NCBI RefSeq assembly: GCF_013149295.1
Contig: NZ_JABGCB010000004.1
Location: forward strand, 124,001 to 188,000
Direction: 5' to 3'
Length of the DNA stretch: 64,000 nucleotides
Origin: Novosphingobium sp. SG751A
Lineage (GTDB): Bacteria; Pseudomonadota; Alphaproteobacteria; Sphingomonadales; Sphingomonadaceae
Part shown: piece by piece, positions 1,410-50,784 of the stretch
Layout: every line of letters starts with the position of its first letter
How positions within the stretch are numbered: position 1 is the first letter of the stretch
The notes under the pieces: model-generated
Told to the model about the DNA's origin: nothing
Seen by the model: only the letters and a program-made list of their open reading frames with translations
Database searches by the model: none
Program-made: the position numbers and the translations under genes

Positions 1410-2318
1410 ATGGCCTTTGCCCGAACCGATCTTGCGGATCTTGCCGCCTTTATCGCCATTGCTCGCCACCGCAATTTTCGCCAGGCGGGGCTGGAACTGG
1501 GCGTCAGCGCCTCGGCGCTCAGCCATGCCCTGAAGGGACTGGAGGAGCGGCTGGGCGTCAAGCTGGTCAACCGGACCAATCGCTCGGTGACGCTGAGCGC
1601 GGCGGGCGAGGATCTGCTGGCCGGGCTGGGCGCTCCTTTTGCGGCGGTGCTGGCCGCCGAGGATGTGCTCAACCGCCATCGCCATACGCCGCGCGGGCGG
1701 ATTCGGCTCAATGTGCCCGATGTGGTGGCCAATATGGTGCTGGCCCCGGTGCTGCCCGAATTTAACCGAAGGTGGCCCGATGTTGAGCTCGATATCTGTG
1801 TCGATAATCGACTGCTGGATGTGTTCGACGAAGGGTTCGATGCGGGCATAAGATTTGGCGGAACGGTGCCCGATGACATGATCGCCCAGCGGATCAGCGC
1901 CGATGTGCAATGGGCGATTGCCGCATCGCCCGCCTACTTTGCGCAATTCGGGGTGCCGCTCCATCCCCGCGATCTGGCCGTGCACCGCTGTCTTCAGGTG
2001 CGTCTGGGCGATGACCGCACCTATCGCTGGGAATTCGAGCGGGGCGAGGAGATCCTCAATCTGAGCGTGCCGGGGCCGGTGACGCATAATTCCACCTCCT
2101 TTGCTGTGGGCATGGCGCTGGGCGGGGGCGGGCTGATTTATGTGCCGGCAAACAGTGTGGCCGATCATCTGGCCAGCGGCGCCTTGCAACAGGTGTTGGC
2201 TGATTGGGTATCGCCCGGGCCTGCGCTGCACATCTATTATCCGGGGCGGCGCAATCTGCCGGTGGGGCTGCGCCTGCTGGTCGAACTGATCCGCGAGATG
2301 CGGCCTTTGGGGTTTTGA
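1410..2318 (+). CDS. LysR-family transcriptional regulator (CrgA-like)
   Basis: A full-length LysR protein of 302 residues. The N-terminal helix-turn-helix covers roughly residues 5-65 (LADLAAFIAIARHRNFRQAG, then SASALSHALKGLEERLGVKL). A linker helix and a two-lobed effector-binding domain follow. The sequence style (FNRRWPDVELDI, GIRFGG near residues 110-150) is that of the CrgA-like group. It lies 6 bases behind the cupin gene and ahead of the alcohol dehydrogenase and MFS genes, all on the same strand, so it is the likely local regulator. No strong ribosome binding site precedes the ATG, which fits translational coupling to the cupin. Confidence 0.93.
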   Translation: MAFARTDLADLAAFIAIARHRNFRQAGLELGVSASALSHALKGLEERLGVKLVNRTNRSVTLSAAGEDLLAGLGAPFAAVLAAEDVLNRHRHTPRGRIRLNVPDVVANMVLAPVLPEFNRRWPDVELDICVDNRLLDVFDEGFDAGIRFGGTVPDDMIAQRISADVQWAIAASPAYFAQFGVPLHPRDLAVHRCLQVRLGDDRTYRWEFERGEEILNLSVPGPVTHNSTSFAVGMALGGGGLIYVPANSVADHLASGALQQVLADWVSPGPALHIYYPGRRNLPVGLRLLVELIREMRPLGF

Positions 2319-2346
2319 TTTTCAGCCTTTGATGAAATTTGCTCAA

Positions 2347-2379
2347 CGCCGCATGGAATGCGCGGGGGCTGATGCGGCG
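2347..2379 (+). terminator. Inverted repeat between LysR and alcohol dehydrogenase genes
   Basis: CGCCGCAT at 2347-2354 is exactly complementary to ATGCGGCG at 2372-2379, giving an 8-bp stem with a 17-base loop in the 111-base gap. No T-run follows, so it may be a weak terminator, an operator for the adjacent LysR protein, or chance in GC-rich DNA. Confidence 0.3.
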
Positions 2380-2429
2380 GGGCGACGGGCGCTAAAAAGG
2401 GGCCTGTCTCCCAACGCAAAGGTTGTCCC

Positions 2430-3446
2430 ATGTACGCTACCGTGCTTTACGGCGCGGGCGATGTCCGTTTCGAGGATGTGCCCGATCCGATCATCCAGCA
2501 GCCCACCGATGCCATTATCCGCGTGACGGCGGCCTGCGTCTGCGGGTCGGACCTGTGGCCGTGGCGGGGCATTCAGGATTACGGCCAACCCACACCCATG
2601 GGCCACGAATATTGCGGCGTGGTTGAGGAAGTTGGCCGCGCCGTCACCTCGATCCGCCCCGGTCAGTTCGTCATCGGCTCCTTCTTTGCCAGCGACAACA
2701 CCTGTCCGCATTGCCGTAACGGCTATCAGTCATCGTGCCAGAACCGCGAATTCGTGGGCGGGGCGCAGGCGCCGCTGCTGCGCGTGCCGATGGCCGACGG
2801 CACGCTGGTGGCCACGCCCGAGACGCCCGGCGCCGATCTGATCCCCAGCCTGCTGGCCGTGTCGGATGTGATGGGCACCGGCTGGTTCGCCGCCGATGCG
2901 GCGCAGGTCGGGCCCGGCGCCACGGCGGTGGTGGTGGGCGATGGGGCGGTGGGGCTGCTCGCGGTGCTGTCGGCGCGGCTGATGGGCGCCGAACGCATCA
3001 TCGCCATGAGCCGACACCCCGCCCGCCAGGCCATCGCCCGCCAGTTCGGCGCAACCGACATTGTGGATGCGCGCGGCGAGGAAGGCGTGGCCATTATCCG
3101 CGACATGACAAAGGGCGTCGGCGCGGACAGTGTGCTGGAATGCGTGGGCACCCAGCAAAGCATGGATCAGGCGATCAAGGCGGTGCGTCCGGGCGGCTAT
3201 ACGTCCTTTGTCGGTGTGCCTCATGGCGTGCAATTGCGCGGCGAGGATCTGTTCTTTGCCCATACCCATCTGCATGGCGGCCCCGCGCCGGTGCGCCGCT
3301 ATCTGCCCGATCTGATCGACAAGGTGTGGGCCAAGGCGATCAACCCCGGCCTTGTGTTCGACCTCGACCTGCCGCTCTCGCAAGTAGCCGATGCCTATCG
3401 TGCGATGGATGAACGCCGCGCGATCAAGGCCATTTTGCGCCCGTAA
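2430..3446 (+). CDS. Zinc-dependent alcohol dehydrogenase, MDR superfamily
   Basis: A 338-residue medium-chain dehydrogenase/reductase. The catalytic zinc site is C38 (CVCGSD), H59 and E60 (MGHEYCG). The structural zinc lobe is altered: C92, C95 and C103 are present but the first of the usual four cysteines is an aspartate (D89). The Rossmann nucleotide-binding segment is VVVGDGAVGLLAV near residues 169-181. It likely oxidises an alcohol or reduces an aldehyde with NAD(P); the substrate is unknown. The MFS gene starts 9 bases after its stop, so the two are probably co-transcribed, and the cupin upstream suggests a shared small-molecule pathway. Confidence 0.92.
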   Translation: MYATVLYGAGDVRFEDVPDPIIQQPTDAIIRVTAACVCGSDLWPWRGIQDYGQPTPMGHEYCGVVEEVGRAVTSIRPGQFVIGSFFASDNTCPHCRNGYQSSCQNREFVGGAQAPLLRVPMADGTLVATPETPGADLIPSLLAVSDVMGTGWFAADAAQVGPGATAVVVGDGAVGLLAVLSARLMGAERIIAMSRHPARQAIARQFGATDIVDARGEEGVAIIRDMTKGVGADSVLECVGTQQSMDQAIKAVRPGGYTSFVGVPHGVQLRGEDLFFAHTHLHGGPAPVRRYLPDLIDKVWAKAINPGLVFDLDLPLSQVADAYRAMDERRAIKAILRP

Positions 3447-43608: not shown

Positions 43609-44538
43609 ATGCGCTTCAAAGGACTCGACCTCAATCTGCTTCAGGTTCTCGATGTGCTGATCGACCGGCGCAGCGTGACCCGTGCGGCCCAGCAACTGCA
43701 TGTCAGCCAGCCCGCGATCAGCGCGGCCCTGTCGCGCCTGCGCCGCCATTTTGACGATGCGCTGGTGGTTCAGCACGGCAAGCATATGGTGCCCACGCCC
43801 TTTGCCCTGCGGCTGCAGCCGGGGCTCAAGGCAGTGCTGGGCGATCTGGACGCGCTGGTGGGCACACCGGCCCATTTCGATCCGGCCACATCCACGCGGG
43901 TGTTCCGTATGATGGTTTCGGATTTCATCCTTGTCGCGGTGCTGGGCGATCTCTTGCCGCAAATCGAGAGCGAGGCCCCGGAACTGCGCTTCGTCATCGT
44001 GCCGCCCCACGATCAGGCCATCGCCATGCTGGAGGCGGGCGAGATCGACCTGCTGATCACCCCGCGCAATTATGTCAGCGAAAAGCATCCGGCGGTGTCC
44101 TTTTTCAAGGAGCGCCATGTTGTGGCCGGATGGAACGACAATCCCCTCATGGCCCGCCCGACCACGCTGGAGGATATGCTGGATGCCAGCTTCATCTCGG
44201 TTCAGATCGGGCGGACGGTCAGTTCATCCTTCGCCATCCACGAATTGAGCCAGATGGGCATCACCATCAACAGCGCGCTGACCACCACGACCTTTGCCGC
44301 GGTGCCGCAATTGCTGATCGGCACGGGGCGTCTGGCGATCCTGCATGAATCGCTGGCGCGCAAGGCGGCGCAATATCTGCCCATCAGTTACTGGCCGCTG
44401 CCGGTGACCATCCCCACCATGGACGAGGCGATCCAATGCCACCGCGCCCGCGCCGAGGACCCGGCGCTGATCTGGCTGATCGAGCGTTTCACCCAATGGG
44501 CCGAGCGCGTGATGGAAGAGCGCGAAGGGCGGGGCTGA
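43609..44538 (+). CDS. LysR-family transcriptional regulator (NodD/NahR-like)
   Basis: A 309-residue protein beginning RFKGLDLNLLQVLDVLIDRR, with recognition helix VSQPAISAALSRLRRHFDDA. The effector domain has RVFRMMVSDFILVAVLGDL and LLITPRNYVSEKHPAVSFF. It belongs to the same branch as the regulators at 35370, 45675 and 57440. It stands between a divergent TonB receptor and a convergent Rieske oxygenase whose stop codon directly abuts its own (44538/44539). Confidence 0.93.
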   Translation: MRFKGLDLNLLQVLDVLIDRRSVTRAAQQLHVSQPAISAALSRLRRHFDDALVVQHGKHMVPTPFALRLQPGLKAVLGDLDALVGTPAHFDPATSTRVFRMMVSDFILVAVLGDLLPQIESEAPELRFVIVPPHDQAIAMLEAGEIDLLITPRNYVSEKHPAVSFFKERHVVAGWNDNPLMARPTTLEDMLDASFISVQIGRTVSSSFAIHELSQMGITINSALTTTTFAAVPQLLIGTGRLAILHESLARKAAQYLPISYWPLPVTIPTMDEAIQCHRARAEDPALIWLIERFTQWAERVMEEREGRG

Positions 44539-45674: not shown

Positions 45675-46619
45675 ATGGACTATCGCCGCTTTGACCTAAA
45701 CCTGCTGGTGGTGCTCGACGCCTTGCTGGAGGAGCGCGGCGTCCATGCCACGGCCCGCCGTCTGGGCATGAGCCAGCCCAATGTCAGCTTTGCTCTGGCC
45801 AAATTGCGCCGGGCGATGGGCGATCAACTGCTGGTGCGCGACGGGGCGGGGATGCGCCCGACGGCACTGGGCGAAGCCTTGCGCGATCCGTTGCGCCGCC
45901 TGCTGCATGGGGTGGAGCATGACATTCTGGCCGGGCGTCATTTCGATCCGGCGGGCGCCACGCGGCATTTTGTGCTCTCCACCTCGGATATTGGAGAGCT
46001 GGTGTTTCTGCCGCGCCTGATGCAGGAATTGGAGCGCGCCGCGCCACAGGTGACGCTCGAATGCCGCTCGCTGCGCCCGACCGATCTGGTGCAGGCGATG
46101 GGAGCCGGGGCGGTCGATCTGGCGCTGGGCTATTTCCCCGATTTGGGGCAGGGGCCTTTCATGACGCAAAAGCTGTTCGACCATCCCTTCACCTGCATCA
46201 TGCGTGAGGGGCATCCGGCGCTGGATGCGCCTTGGACGCAGGAGGCCTTTCTGGCGCTGGGCCATATCGTCGTTTCCTCCAGCGGGCGCAGTCAGGAACT
46301 GTTCGAGATACAGCTCGATTCCATGGGACTGCGCCGCCGTGTCGCGCTGCAATCACCCCATTTCATGAGCGTGCCGCTGCTGGTGGCCGGCTCGGATCTG
46401 ATCAGCACCGTGCCCAAGGCGGTGGGGGCCATTTTTGCCAGTATGGCCCCGCTGCGTCTGATCGATCCGCCCTTTGCCGCACCGCTGATCGGCATCGCGC
46501 AATATTGGCATTTGCGGGTGCAGGACGATCCGGGCGTGATCTGGCTGCGCTCGCTGATTGCGCGGCTGTTTCTGGGGCGCGATCCTTCGCCGCTTAACCC
46601 AGATGCAGCGCCGCGATGA
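45675..46619 (+). CDS. LysR-family transcriptional regulator (NodD/NahR-like)
   Basis: A 314-residue regulator starting MDYRRFDLNLLVVLDALLEE, with recognition helix MSQPNVSFALAKLRRAMGD. The effector domain includes HFVLSTSDIGELVFLPRLM and VDLALGYFPDLGQGPFM. It is divergent to the VanA-like gene across 104 bases containing a perfect inverted repeat, so it is its probable activator. No Shine-Dalgarno sequence is visible before the ATG. Its last 26 bases overlap the convergent antiporter gene. Confidence 0.93.
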   Translation: MDYRRFDLNLLVVLDALLEERGVHATARRLGMSQPNVSFALAKLRRAMGDQLLVRDGAGMRPTALGEALRDPLRRLLHGVEHDILAGRHFDPAGATRHFVLSTSDIGELVFLPRLMQELERAAPQVTLECRSLRPTDLVQAMGAGAVDLALGYFPDLGQGPFMTQKLFDHPFTCIMREGHPALDAPWTQEAFLALGHIVVSSSGRSQELFEIQLDSMGLRRRVALQSPHFMSVPLLVAGSDLISTVPKAVGAIFASMAPLRLIDPPFAAPLIGIAQYWHLRVQDDPGVIWLRSLIARLFLGRDPSPLNPDAAPR

Positions 46620-47601
46620 CGCCCGCAAACACCAGATAGAGCAGCCCCATCCCCGCCAGCAGCCCACGTGAGGCCATGCCGCGCCGGAACACAAGGAACA
46701 TGATAAGGATCGCCGCCATCGTTGCGCCTGCGGCCACCAGCAGGGGCGGCGTGAGCAGCCATGGCGTGAAGAACAGGCCCAGCGCGGTGGGGATCGTTGC
46801 TTGAATCATCATCGCGCCCGAAATATTGGCCAGCGCCAGCCTATACTTGCCCTGACGCACCCAGATTATGGCATTCATCGTTTCAGGCAATTCGGTGGCG
46901 ATCGGGCTGAACAGCAGGGCCAGCAATTGCGGACGCAGGCCCAACGCCGGCCCCAGCGCTTCCAATTGCCGCACGAAAGTCTGCGAGGCGACAAAGATCA
47001 CCACCAGCGCCGCCAGTACCTGAAAGATGGCCATGCCCGTGGCGGGCACCGCGCGCCGGGACTGGAATTTCAGCGGTTCGATGCCTTCTTCGGCATCATC
47101 GCCTTCGCCGCCCAACTCCTGACGGACATACAGCGCATAGGCGGCAAGGAACAGCACGCCCAGCCAAGGTTTCCACGCAAAGGCGATCAGGCCCAGCGTG
47201 ATCTTGGCGGCAAAGATGGCGAGGAACCAGCCCTGATCCTTGCTGAGATGGAGAAAGGTGTGCGCGATTTCAGGTGAGGCAGCAAGCCGCCGCCCCGTCA
47301 GCAGCAGCACCACGCCCACCGTGGCATAGGCAATGGTCGAGAGCGCCAGCGGGCCGCCCAGCGCCGCGCCCACGCCCAGTTCCTTGGCCGCAGCCCCCGT
47401 GCCAAAGGCCACCGCCACCAGCGTGACCACGCTTTCGGGCAGGGCGGTGCCGAAAGCGGCCAGAATCGTGCCGGTCGCCTTCTGGCCCACGTCCAGCTTT
47501 TCGCCGACCCATTCGACGCCATTCACGAAATATTCGCAGGCCAGATAGATCACGACAGCTGACCCGAGCAGCAGCGCGATGGTGATCGTCAAAGAAGACA
47601 T
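46594..47601 (-). CDS. Ca2+:cation antiporter (CaCA family)
   Basis: A 335-residue membrane protein with about ten or eleven helices from the ATG at 47599-47601. The two alpha-repeats of the family are plain: FGTALPESVVTLVAVAFGTG in the first half and FSPIATELPETMNAIIWVRQ in the second, each with the ion-binding PE pair. An acidic loop (GGEGDDAEEGIEP) separates the halves. It exchanges Ca2+, and possibly Mn2+, for Na+ or H+. The yybP-ykoY element in its 5' leader argues for a role in Mn2+ homeostasis, or for Mn2+ as the sensed signal. Confidence 0.9.
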   Translation of the reverse strand: MSSLTITIALLLGSAVVIYLACEYFVNGVEWVGEKLDVGQKATGTILAAFGTALPESVVTLVAVAFGTGAAAKELGVGAALGGPLALSTIAYATVGVVLLLTGRRLAASPEIAHTFLHLSKDQGWFLAIFAAKITLGLIAFAWKPWLGVLFLAAYALYVRQELGGEGDDAEEGIEPLKFQSRRAVPATGMAIFQVLAALVVIFVASQTFVRQLEALGPALGLRPQLLALLFSPIATELPETMNAIIWVRQGKYRLALANISGAMMIQATIPTALGLFFTPWLLTPPLLVAAGATMAAILIMFLVFRRGMASRGLLAGMGLLYLVFAGVIAALHLG

Positions 47602-47672
47602 GAACAGATTCCACAGGGCCGGGTATTGGACACATGAACCGGGCACGCGCCCGACCCCGAGTGCATGCCGAT

Positions 47673-47771
47673 CCATGGTCTCGCCGAACCGTAAAGGCCG
47701 CACATGCCATGGCCGAGGCCAAGTTTGTTGACATGCGCTCCGCTGAAAATGCGGATGGCTACTCCCCAAGG
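47673..47771 (-). promoter_or_regulatory. yybP-ykoY (manganese) riboswitch
   Basis: Read on the minus strand from 47771, the leader has CCTTGGGGAGTAGC (through 47758), then GCATGTCAACAAACTTGG, and closes with CGAGACC at 47683-47677 and CCATGG at 47678-47673. GGGGAGUAGC, GUCAACA and GAGACC are the conserved core of the yybP-ykoY class, which binds Mn2+ through two facing loops. CCTTGG and CCATGG form the closing stem with one U-U mismatch. It ends 71 bases before the antiporter start codon. Assignment is by motif recognition; a covariance search would be decisive. Confidence 0.88.
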
Positions 47772-47802: not shown

Positions 47803-47808
47803 TGTCAA
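47803..47808 (-). promoter_or_regulatory. Candidate -35 box for the riboswitch transcript
   Basis: TTGACA on the minus strand at 47808-47803 overlaps the ABC-F stop codon (47807-47805). A start about 35 bases downstream falls near 47773, right at the 5' end of the riboswitch. The -10 region is not clear. Confidence 0.45.
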
Positions 47809-49397: not shown

Positions 49398-49603
49398 AAT
49401 GACACCGGAAAATTGCAAAACAGGACGGGCTTGATCAGCGCGCCTTCCGGTCCATTTTATCCTCCTGCAGGCATGCCGGCCCAGTGCCGATGCTCAATGC
49501 CAATATGTTTCCTATAACGACAAAGGCGCCCTGTCGCAATCGTCCTGTGCAGGATCCGTGATCGTTCAGGCGATGGTCCGGGATCTGCATTATCGCTCTT
49601 GCC

Positions 49604-49624
49604 ATATCCCCCCAGGGGGGATAT
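49604..49624. promoter_or_regulatory. CsoR/RcnR-type operator before the rcnA-like gene
   Basis: ATAT-C6-A-G6-ATAT spans 49604-49624: perfect 10-bp arms about one central A. CsoR/RcnR-family tetramers recognise G/C tracts flanked by AT-rich inverted repeats (E. coli RcnR: TACT-G6-N-AGTA). It ends 11 bases before the exporter ATG, so a bound repressor would block promoter and ribosome access. The family's regulator gene lies directly after the exporter. Confidence 0.82.
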
Positions 49625-49635
49625 TTGCCCCGCCC

Positions 49636-50508
49636 ATGACCGATCTCACCGCCCTTATCGCCCAGGATGCCGCCCATGGCTGGCTCTTCATTCCCAGCGC
49701 TATCGTGCTGGGCGCGCTGCACGGGCTGGAGCCGGGCCATTCCAAGACGATGATGGCCGCCTTCATCATCGCCGTAAAAGGCACAGTGCGTCAGGCGGTG
49801 CTGCTGGGGCTGGCGGCCACGCTGTCGCATACGCTGGTGGTTTGGCTGGTGGCGATGGGGGGAATGTGGGCTTTCGGCTCATTCCGGGCCGAGGACACCG
49901 AACCCTATTTCCAGTTGGCCTCGGGCGCGGTGATTGTGGCCATGGCGATCTGGATGATCTGGCGCGCACGCGCCGACCTGCGCGCGGCCCATGCGCATGA
50001 CCATCATCACGGACACGATCATCACGATCATCATCATGGCCATCACCACGATCATCACCACGGGCATGGCCACCACCACCACGAACCCACCGAGGAAGAA
50101 ATTCACGAACTGGAACTGGCCACCGGCGGCTATGTCGATGCCCATGAGGCCGCCCATGCCGAGGACATCCGCCGCCGCTTTTCGGGTCGCTCGGTCACCA
50201 CGGGTCAGATTGTGATCTTCGGCCTGACGGGCGGACTGGTGCCTTGCCCCGGCGCGATCACGGTGCTGATGCTTTGTCTGCAATTGCACCGGGTGGCGCT
50301 GGGTGCGGTGCTGGTGGCGGGCTTCTCGGTGGGGCTGGCGCTGACGATGGTGGCTTCAGGCGTGCTGGCGGCGCTTTCGCTGCGCCATCTGGAAAAGCGC
50401 TGGAGCGGATTTGGCGATGCGGTGCGCAGGGCCCCGCTGATCTCGGGCGCGGTGATCCTGATCGTGGGGGCGGTGATTGCGCTTGACGGCGCGCGCCATC
50501 TGCTCTGA
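49636..50508 (+). CDS. rcnA: Nickel/cobalt efflux protein, RcnA/NicO family
   Basis: A 290-residue membrane exporter from the ATG at 49636. The NicO metal motif HGLEPGHSKTM is at residues 29-39 in helix 1. A cytoplasmic loop at about 119-149 is extremely His-rich (HAHDHHHGHDHHDHHHGHHH and on), as in RcnA, and the second half has GLVPCPGAITVLM. RcnA exports Ni2+ and Co2+. Operator upstream and repressor downstream make a self-contained metal-resistance module. Confidence 0.92.
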   Translation: MTDLTALIAQDAAHGWLFIPSAIVLGALHGLEPGHSKTMMAAFIIAVKGTVRQAVLLGLAATLSHTLVVWLVAMGGMWAFGSFRAEDTEPYFQLASGAVIVAMAIWMIWRARADLRAAHAHDHHHGHDHHDHHHGHHHDHHHGHGHHHHEPTEEEIHELELATGGYVDAHEAAHAEDIRRRFSGRSVTTGQIVIFGLTGGLVPCPGAITVLMLCLQLHRVALGAVLVAGFSVGLALTMVASGVLAALSLRHLEKRWSGFGDAVRRAPLISGAVILIVGAVIALDGARHLL

Positions 50509-50517
50509 ACCGGCGCG

Positions 50518-50784
50518 ATGAGCCACGCCACCGACAAGGACCTGACCAACCGCCTCAAGCGCGCCAACGGTCACCTCGCCAGCATCATCACGATGATCGA
50601 GGATAACCGCAGCGCGCTTGATGTGGCCCAGCAACTGGCCGCTGTGGTGGCCGCGCTGGACAAAGCCAAGACGCGGCTGGTGGCCCATCATATCGAACAT
50701 CACCTGACCGATACGCTGGGCGAACTGACGCCGGAACTGCGCGAGAAACTGGCGCAACTGTCGGAACTCGCCAAATATCTTTGA
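50518..50784 (+). CDS. CsoR/RcnR-family metal-sensing repressor lacking cysteine
   Basis: An 88-residue all-helical regulator starting 9 bases after rcnA. The family core is NRLKRANGHLASIITMIEDN, DVAQQLAAVVAALDKAKTRL and HHIEHHLTDTL. The invariant metal-ligand cysteine of the family (RcnR C35; SCLDIAQQL in NreA-like proteins) aligns to A33 here (RSALDVAQQL), and the whole protein has no cysteine. Histidines H3, H57, H58, H61 and H62 remain. Coordination must therefore differ from RcnR, CsoR and FrmR. The matching operator upstream of rcnA implies it is still a functional DNA binder. Confidence 0.9.
   Translation: MSHATDKDLTNRLKRANGHLASIITMIEDNRSALDVAQQLAAVVAALDKAKTRLVAHHIEHHLTDTLGELTPELREKLAQLSELAKYL

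Follow-up and report, generated by a model that had tools for sequence, protein, structure and literature searches.

Which metal ion does a CaCA-family antiporter carry when its gene lies directly behind a manganese-sensing RNA? The gene that raises this question (46594-47601 on the minus strand, ATG at 47601; 335 aa) is situated in the window, the whole 64,000-nucleotide stretch of an alphaproteobacterial genome that was analysed here. A preliminary description of this DNA had placed a yybP-ykoY riboswitch ahead of the gene and offered two readings of the pair: Mn2+ export, or Mn2+-sensed calcium exchange. The first is supported by the Rfam assignment, by recurrence of the arrangement across phyla and by a precedent in Bordetella, and we put at roughly 85% the probability that a functional Mn2+ riboswitch turns on an Mn2+ exporter of CaCA fold. 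The window protein would probably serve for Mn2+-induced Mn2+ export, which may be coupled to protons. Loss of the usual CaCA ion-site motifs in the subfamily speaks against calcium exchange.

The RNA is the more readily identified of the two partners. Positions 47775-47616 of the minus strand match the Rfam model RF00080 (yybP-ykoY) over its whole length with 58.3 bits (E 8.5e-13), above the gathering cut-off of 45 bits, and this is the sole match at E <= 0.001 in the whole 5.73 Mb genome. The aptamer proper runs from P1 to P1 at about 47673-47771, exactly the interval first assigned to it, and the three conserved boxes and the closing stem stand in the order originally described: P1 strands CCTTGG (47771-47766) and CCATGG (47678-47673), with one mismatch, the L1 core GGGGAGTAGC (47758-47767), GTCAACA in L3 (47726-47732) and GAGACC (47682-47677). 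L1 matches GGGGAGUAG at 47767-47758, and L3 (47732-47726) includes the Mn-contacting adenosine. In the structure of the X. oryzae riboswitch, Mn is contacted by A48 of ACA48UACU, which is the final A of GUCAACA (PMC6754395); by our own correspondence, the last A of the window L3 (47726) would be its equivalent. An independent covariance model, R1, built from 15 actinobacterial leaders only, also matches the site (47779-47663, 33.8 bits, E 5.7e-6), and a weak R1 match elsewhere in the window (43963-44057, E 0.65) is chance-like. The Mn riboswitch before a CaCA gene is therefore real as an observation.

The transporter is a member of the CaCA superfamily both by its two PF01699 repeats (E 5.5e-26) and by its fold. 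Its closest solved relative by sequence is NCX_Mj, and an AlphaFold model made with 71 sequences (pLDDT 91, pTM 0.87) finds its best structural matches all among CaCA proteins: NCLX (Z 33.5), VCX1 (30.6), NCX1 (30.5) and NCX_Mj (21.5). The fold and the two alpha repeats are shared with the NCX_Mj/YrbG-type CaCA proteins of TIGR00367; unlike them, the window protein has its GSN motifs replaced and falls below the TIGR00367 cut-off (69.4 against 179.65 bits). Repeat 1 contains GTALPE followed by GGPLAL, repeat 2 ATELPE followed by GAMMIQ, and the subfamily signature is GTALPE / ATELPE / GAMxxQ; Thr52, Glu56, Thr236, Glu237, Glu240, Met264 and Gln267 are invariant in 71 sequences from both clades. 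Ordinary CaCA controls from the order, hand-picked from the highest-scoring PF01699 places and not a random draw, have GTSLPE, GSNI.N and GSN(I/L/M)FN motifs in 12 of 12 cases, and the window protein lacks the GSN-type motif that ordinary Na+/Ca2+ exchangers carry in both repeats. The controls also differ from the window locus in their leaders: neither the aptamer core nor an R1 match (E <= 1) is found upstream of any of the 12.

When the window protein is aligned with NCX_Mj (at low identity, with repeat 2 placed directly and repeat 1 by hand across a loop), the changed positions correspond to what we take to be Asn81, Asp240 and the Na+-site serines. In our reading, the divalent site is kept (both Glu, both Thr), the Na+ sites are lost and an extra Glu is gained. 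Since Na+/Ca2+-exchanger ion-site positions have been replaced and the divalent site retains its two Glu and two Thr, Mn2+/H+ exchange would be the preferred mechanism, H+ being a more likely counter-ion than Na+.

An unlikely alternative widens the substrate range: the protein would be a pump for several divalent transition metals (Mn2+ plus Fe2+, Cd2+ or Co2+), with Mn2+ as the sensed signal. Met264, beside the presumed site and invariant in 71 of 71 sequences, could favour soft metals, and a gene for Ni/Co efflux, from another family, is found some 2 kb away from the Mn-riboswitch gene. This is NicO (NF007454, 398 bits), with a metal-sensitive repressor (PF02583) behind it, at 49558-50781 of the window on the plus strand, opposite to that of the ABC-F gene upstream of the riboswitch. 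Less probable again, at under one in ten, is a calcium exchanger whose riboswitch ties the export of calcium to the Mn2+ level or responds to Ca2+ too. The CaCA fold and the Pfam family name would suit it, as would a Streptococcus yybP-ykoY RNA for which PMC9495176 reports Ca2+ binding and a role in regulating Ca2+ efflux. The window protein, however, has GGPLAL and GAMMIQ in place of GSN motifs, the Bordetella gene is described in PMC8546581 as not induced by calcium, and the other genes under the same aptamers belong to the GDT1, MntP and TerC families.

Mn2+ export has a published precedent. The report on BP3410 of Bordetella pertussis describes a CaCA protein under a yybP-ykoY riboswitch as a Mn exporter: the gene is induced by Mn, aptamer and promoter mutants are unresponsive, the working protein leaves about 5-fold less Mn in cells, and the common B. 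pertussis allele is non-functional (PMC8546581). In a table passage of a 2023 review, the entries under Ca2+:cation exchangers are the two Bordetella proteins (PMC9936198). BP3410 is taken as a homologue by way of three other Bordetella species, not by comparison of the B. pertussis sequence itself; the proteins of those three genomes share 54-55% identity with the window protein and likewise follow RF00080, which scores above the cut-off in two of them and 42.7 bits in B. ansorpii. In a tree of 71 proteins, a branch with 100/100 support parts 59 rows, among them those of the window, Bordetella, Actinomycetota and Bacillota (B. pertussis itself is not in the tree), from a distant clade of 12, so that the window's riboswitch-linked CaCA protein shares a clade with the Bordetella homologues. 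Like BP3410, it is a CaCA protein directly behind RF00080; unlike it, it comes from an alphaproteobacterium, and its gene is open where the common B. pertussis allele is non-functional. The pairing is known in kind since 2021. The preliminary description had noted that this riboswitch class usually stands before MntP or P-type ATPases, and the surprise which that implies is reduced because the Bordetella paper had already established the combination. What is added here is breadth, a residue signature, the exchange of exporters and a set of divergent actinobacterial aptamers.

At E 1e-15 the protein occurs in 5 of 385 genomes of the class sample and in 51 of 398 of the phylum sample, mostly as the distant clade; it is present in 2 of 147 genomes of the order sample, both with RF00080 just upstream (58.3 and 41.3 bits), and in 11 of 195 genomes of the genus. 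Eight of the ten other carriers in the genus have an aptamer upstream by R1 (E 0.006 or better), and R1 finds none in L204 and L205 (for L205, the match begins at residue 109). The core has been preserved in the congeners L196-L203, which have 60-96% protein identity. Named genomes, when scanned, yielded 581 loci, of which the best 80 were analysed. Among these 80, RF00080 is above the cut-off in 42 (16 + 15 + 6 + 5), always on the strand of the gene and with no more than 177 nt between its end and the matched region. Four more have the ordinary core below the cut-off (L066, L069, L076, L088), 15 actinobacterial loci have GGGGAGTAG 168-226 nt before the match within a conserved leader, and three Bacillota loci have a related leader. 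An aptamer of any form is thus present in about 64 of the best 80, the other 16 having no visible aptamer (one, L141, has no upstream DNA). Among closer loci (L030-L040), RF00080 is found at E <= 0.01 in 6 of 11 and not before L032, L033, L039 or L040, with only 86 nt upstream in L031; in the distant clade (29-33% identity) it is found at the same threshold in 3 of 21.

Several loci have peculiarities of their own. L042, L045 and L047 place the distant CaCA clade behind RF00080, and a tmRNA gene lies downstream in L042, L045 and also L046, which has no RF00080 match. In L095 (2681-3000), a tRNA gene stands where the 5' half of the aptamer is expected, and an apparent 3' half and platform remain before the CaCA gene: a disrupted switch or a misassembly. 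Pseudomonas brassicacearum (L065) has an M-box Mg2+ riboswitch (2274-2448, minus strand) back to back with the Mn2+ riboswitch (2824-2990, plus strand). In the tree, this species groups with alphaproteobacterial rows and Asticcacaulis with beta/gamma rows; both have aptamers, a sign that switch and gene may have been transferred together.

The 15 actinobacterial loci (L091, L096, L104-L106, L109-L113, L120, L134, L136, L138, L140; core 168-226 nt before the CaCA match) form a subgroup with GUCGACA in L3 that lies below the Rfam cut-off and is also found before GDT1. With RF00080 at E up to 5, five of seven actinobacterial loci tested score 17.3-28.9 bits, and no match appears in the other two (L104, L138) or in the three Bacillota loci. 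A P1-P2-P3-P4 structure drawn by hand from one row of the 15-leader alignment pairs in 95.2% of cells, and in far fewer when slid; 12 of its pairs change on both sides, against a shuffled mean of 4.3, a count reached in 0 of 500 shuffles, with P1 varying on one side only. R1 recovers the three Bacillota leaders (E 2e-7 to 3e-9) and, of 46 proteobacterial aptamer-bearing loci, 45 at E <= 5 and 24 at E <= 0.01 in the expected place. From this cross-recovery and the shared structure we conclude that, as far as sequence comparison can tell, the actinobacterial, Bacillota and proteobacterial leaders are one RNA family. The idea that the GUCGACA variant swaps the Mn-contacting adenosine for G was dropped: the contacting A48, as identified in PMC6754395, is kept in the variant. 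The changed base sits in a stem, where it pairs with C in 15 of 15 rows (columns 41-69).

Run against 17 whole genomes, R1 has matches at 31 places in 15 of them, the 15 being the actinobacterial ones. Twelve are before CaCA (11 are the model's own training sequences and one, L176, is new), ten before GDT1 (five by motif, five by Pfam), eight before TerC (four by Pfam, four by resemblance of the start) and one is without a locus. The two Clostridium genomes give no whole-genome match at E <= 0.001 though their loci match, which we take as a loss in the first-look filter. A second aptamer subtype, GGAGGGGAGTAYTCC with GTCAACACGG or similar, precedes TerC in actinobacterial genomes.

What stands behind the switch varies within the order too. 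There, RF00080 gives 27 matches: 23 before GDT1 (identified by one or two ExGDKT motifs), one before MntP (by Pfam), two before CaCA and one (L029) with nothing recognised behind it; Infernal's stricter filters lose weak matches, so 27 of 147 is a lower bound. L029 (24.6 bits, partial, no Mn gene recognised behind it) is probably a false match. Compared with the window, the loci with RF00080 before GDT1/UPF0016 (MneA type), MntP or TerC have the same aptamer in the same position, but the transporter that it regulates comes from an unrelated family. Neither GDT1 nor MntP gives a match in the window genome at E <= 0.001, and its two PF01699 matches we take to be the two repeats of one protein. 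The exporter therefore seems to have been exchanged, the CaCA protein apparently filling the role of GDT1, or of MntP in one relative. All five other congeners in the order sample have GDT1, two of them behind RF00080; the other CaCA carrier in that sample (G125) keeps a GDT1 gene elsewhere, and so the exchange is not complete there. Among 17 genomes inspected outside the order, nine contain RF00080 twice. In eight of the nine, one copy is before CaCA and the other, by motif, before GDT1 (six) or MntP (two); in Bordetella ansorpii only one of two RF00080 sites is tied to a gene by motif.

Downstream of the aptamer, four elements on the minus strand can form two mutually exclusive helices. Element A, the 3' strand of P1 with an extension (CATGGATCGG, 47668-47677), is complementary to A' (CCGGTTCATG, 47633-47642), which would compete with P1; element B (GGGTCGGG, 47650-47657) pairs with B' (CCCGGCCC, 47616-47623). 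The A:A' and B:B' helices recur in 35 proteobacterial leaders: 32 of the 46 aptamer-bearing loci, picked mainly for short spacing, plus the window and two congeners, with 80-93 nt between GAGACC and the start codon (81 in the window). For A:A', 12 pairs change on both sides against a shuffled mean of 8.5 (8 of 500 shuffles as high), and such changes occupy 54 cells, where shuffling gives 16.0 and sliding no more than 34. These changes are confined to the upper part of the helix; the four pairs that use GACC of P1 form in 87% of cells and show no two-sided change, and the competition of A' with P1 therefore rests on complementarity (10 possible pairs with A in the window). For B:B', seven pairs and 12 cells change on both sides, against 2.4 and 3.0 in shuffles and at most three pairs and six cells when slid. 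Covariation of both helices thus supports a putative bistable expression platform. This joint count is stronger evidence than shuffle tests of A against A' in single leaders, where the fraction is at or below 0.05 in 12 of 36 (the window at 0.010), in two of those 12 (L086, L098) the partner of A was another stretch, and the free fold of many leaders kept B:B' rather than A:A'.

Both termination and translation control were considered as ways in which such a platform might act on the window gene. Early termination without Mn is reported for Bordetella (PMC8546581). The window leader, searched for an intrinsic terminator, yields none; it has no U-tract after A', a feature present in some relatives such as L108, and its sequence has no strong Shine-Dalgarno that would explain the action of the platform. 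A weak Shine-Dalgarno-like GTGGAA (47609-47614, minus strand) is predicted to open partly when P1 is forced: for the GGA ahead of the start, the opening goes up from 0.05-0.29 to 0.25-0.54. The forced-P1 state is 13 kcal/mol less stable in a calculation that leaves out Mn2+ and tertiary contacts, and averaged over the start region the opening is the same in both states (0.45). These folds are only suggestive of translation control.

Ahead of the aptamer lies a candidate -35 box, TTGACA (47803-47808, minus strand), which does overlap the stop codon TGA of the ABC-F gene (47807-47805), as had been pointed out. The same description had read it as a promoter starting transcription at the aptamer. 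A consensus scan found no sigma-70 promoter in the window leader, whose -10 is poor. TTGAC nevertheless stands 40-42 nt ahead of the core GGGGAGTAG in 16 of 21 alphaproteobacterial leaders examined (it is absent there in L066, L086, L100, L108 and L122; L036, a further alphaproteobacterial locus with RF00080, is not among the 21). The conserved position supports the promoter despite the poor -10, and the RNA would start at about P1. That the aptamer is a decayed relic or a functionless chance match, as the poor -10 and weak Shine-Dalgarno might hint, is very improbable given 58.3 bits in Rfam and a core kept in congeners (L196-L203) and in remote species.

Together, these elements suggest how the switch may work. 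As cellular Mn2+ rises, the ion would bind between L1 and L3 and stabilise P1, as has been shown for the family elsewhere. With strand A held in P1, the competing A:A' hairpin would be blocked and B:B' free to form, and the B:B' fold would in turn allow the antiporter to be made. The CaCA protein would then export Mn2+ against a counter-ion, more probably H+ than Na+.

A wider proposal, towards which the evidence tips by a little, is that the ATELPE/GAMxxQ branch of CaCA is a general class of riboswitch-controlled Mn2+/H+ exporters in at least three phyla (Pseudomonadota, Actinomycetota and Bacillota). Its members would have rebuilt the Na+/Ca2+ site (Glu237, Met264 and Gln267 invariant) and would replace GDT1 or MntP behind the same switch, with an actinobacterial aptamer subgroup (GUCGACA in L3) that the Rfam cut-off misses. 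A single published case from a pathogen would then become a predicted exporter class with a sequence signature, and the metal named in 'calcium/sodium antiporter' annotations of this CaCA branch may be wrong. Nature has in effect run an exchange experiment by placing one switch before three unrelated exporters within a single order, and the altered CaCA site could be used to test how the fold of a Ca2+ exchanger comes to take Mn2+.
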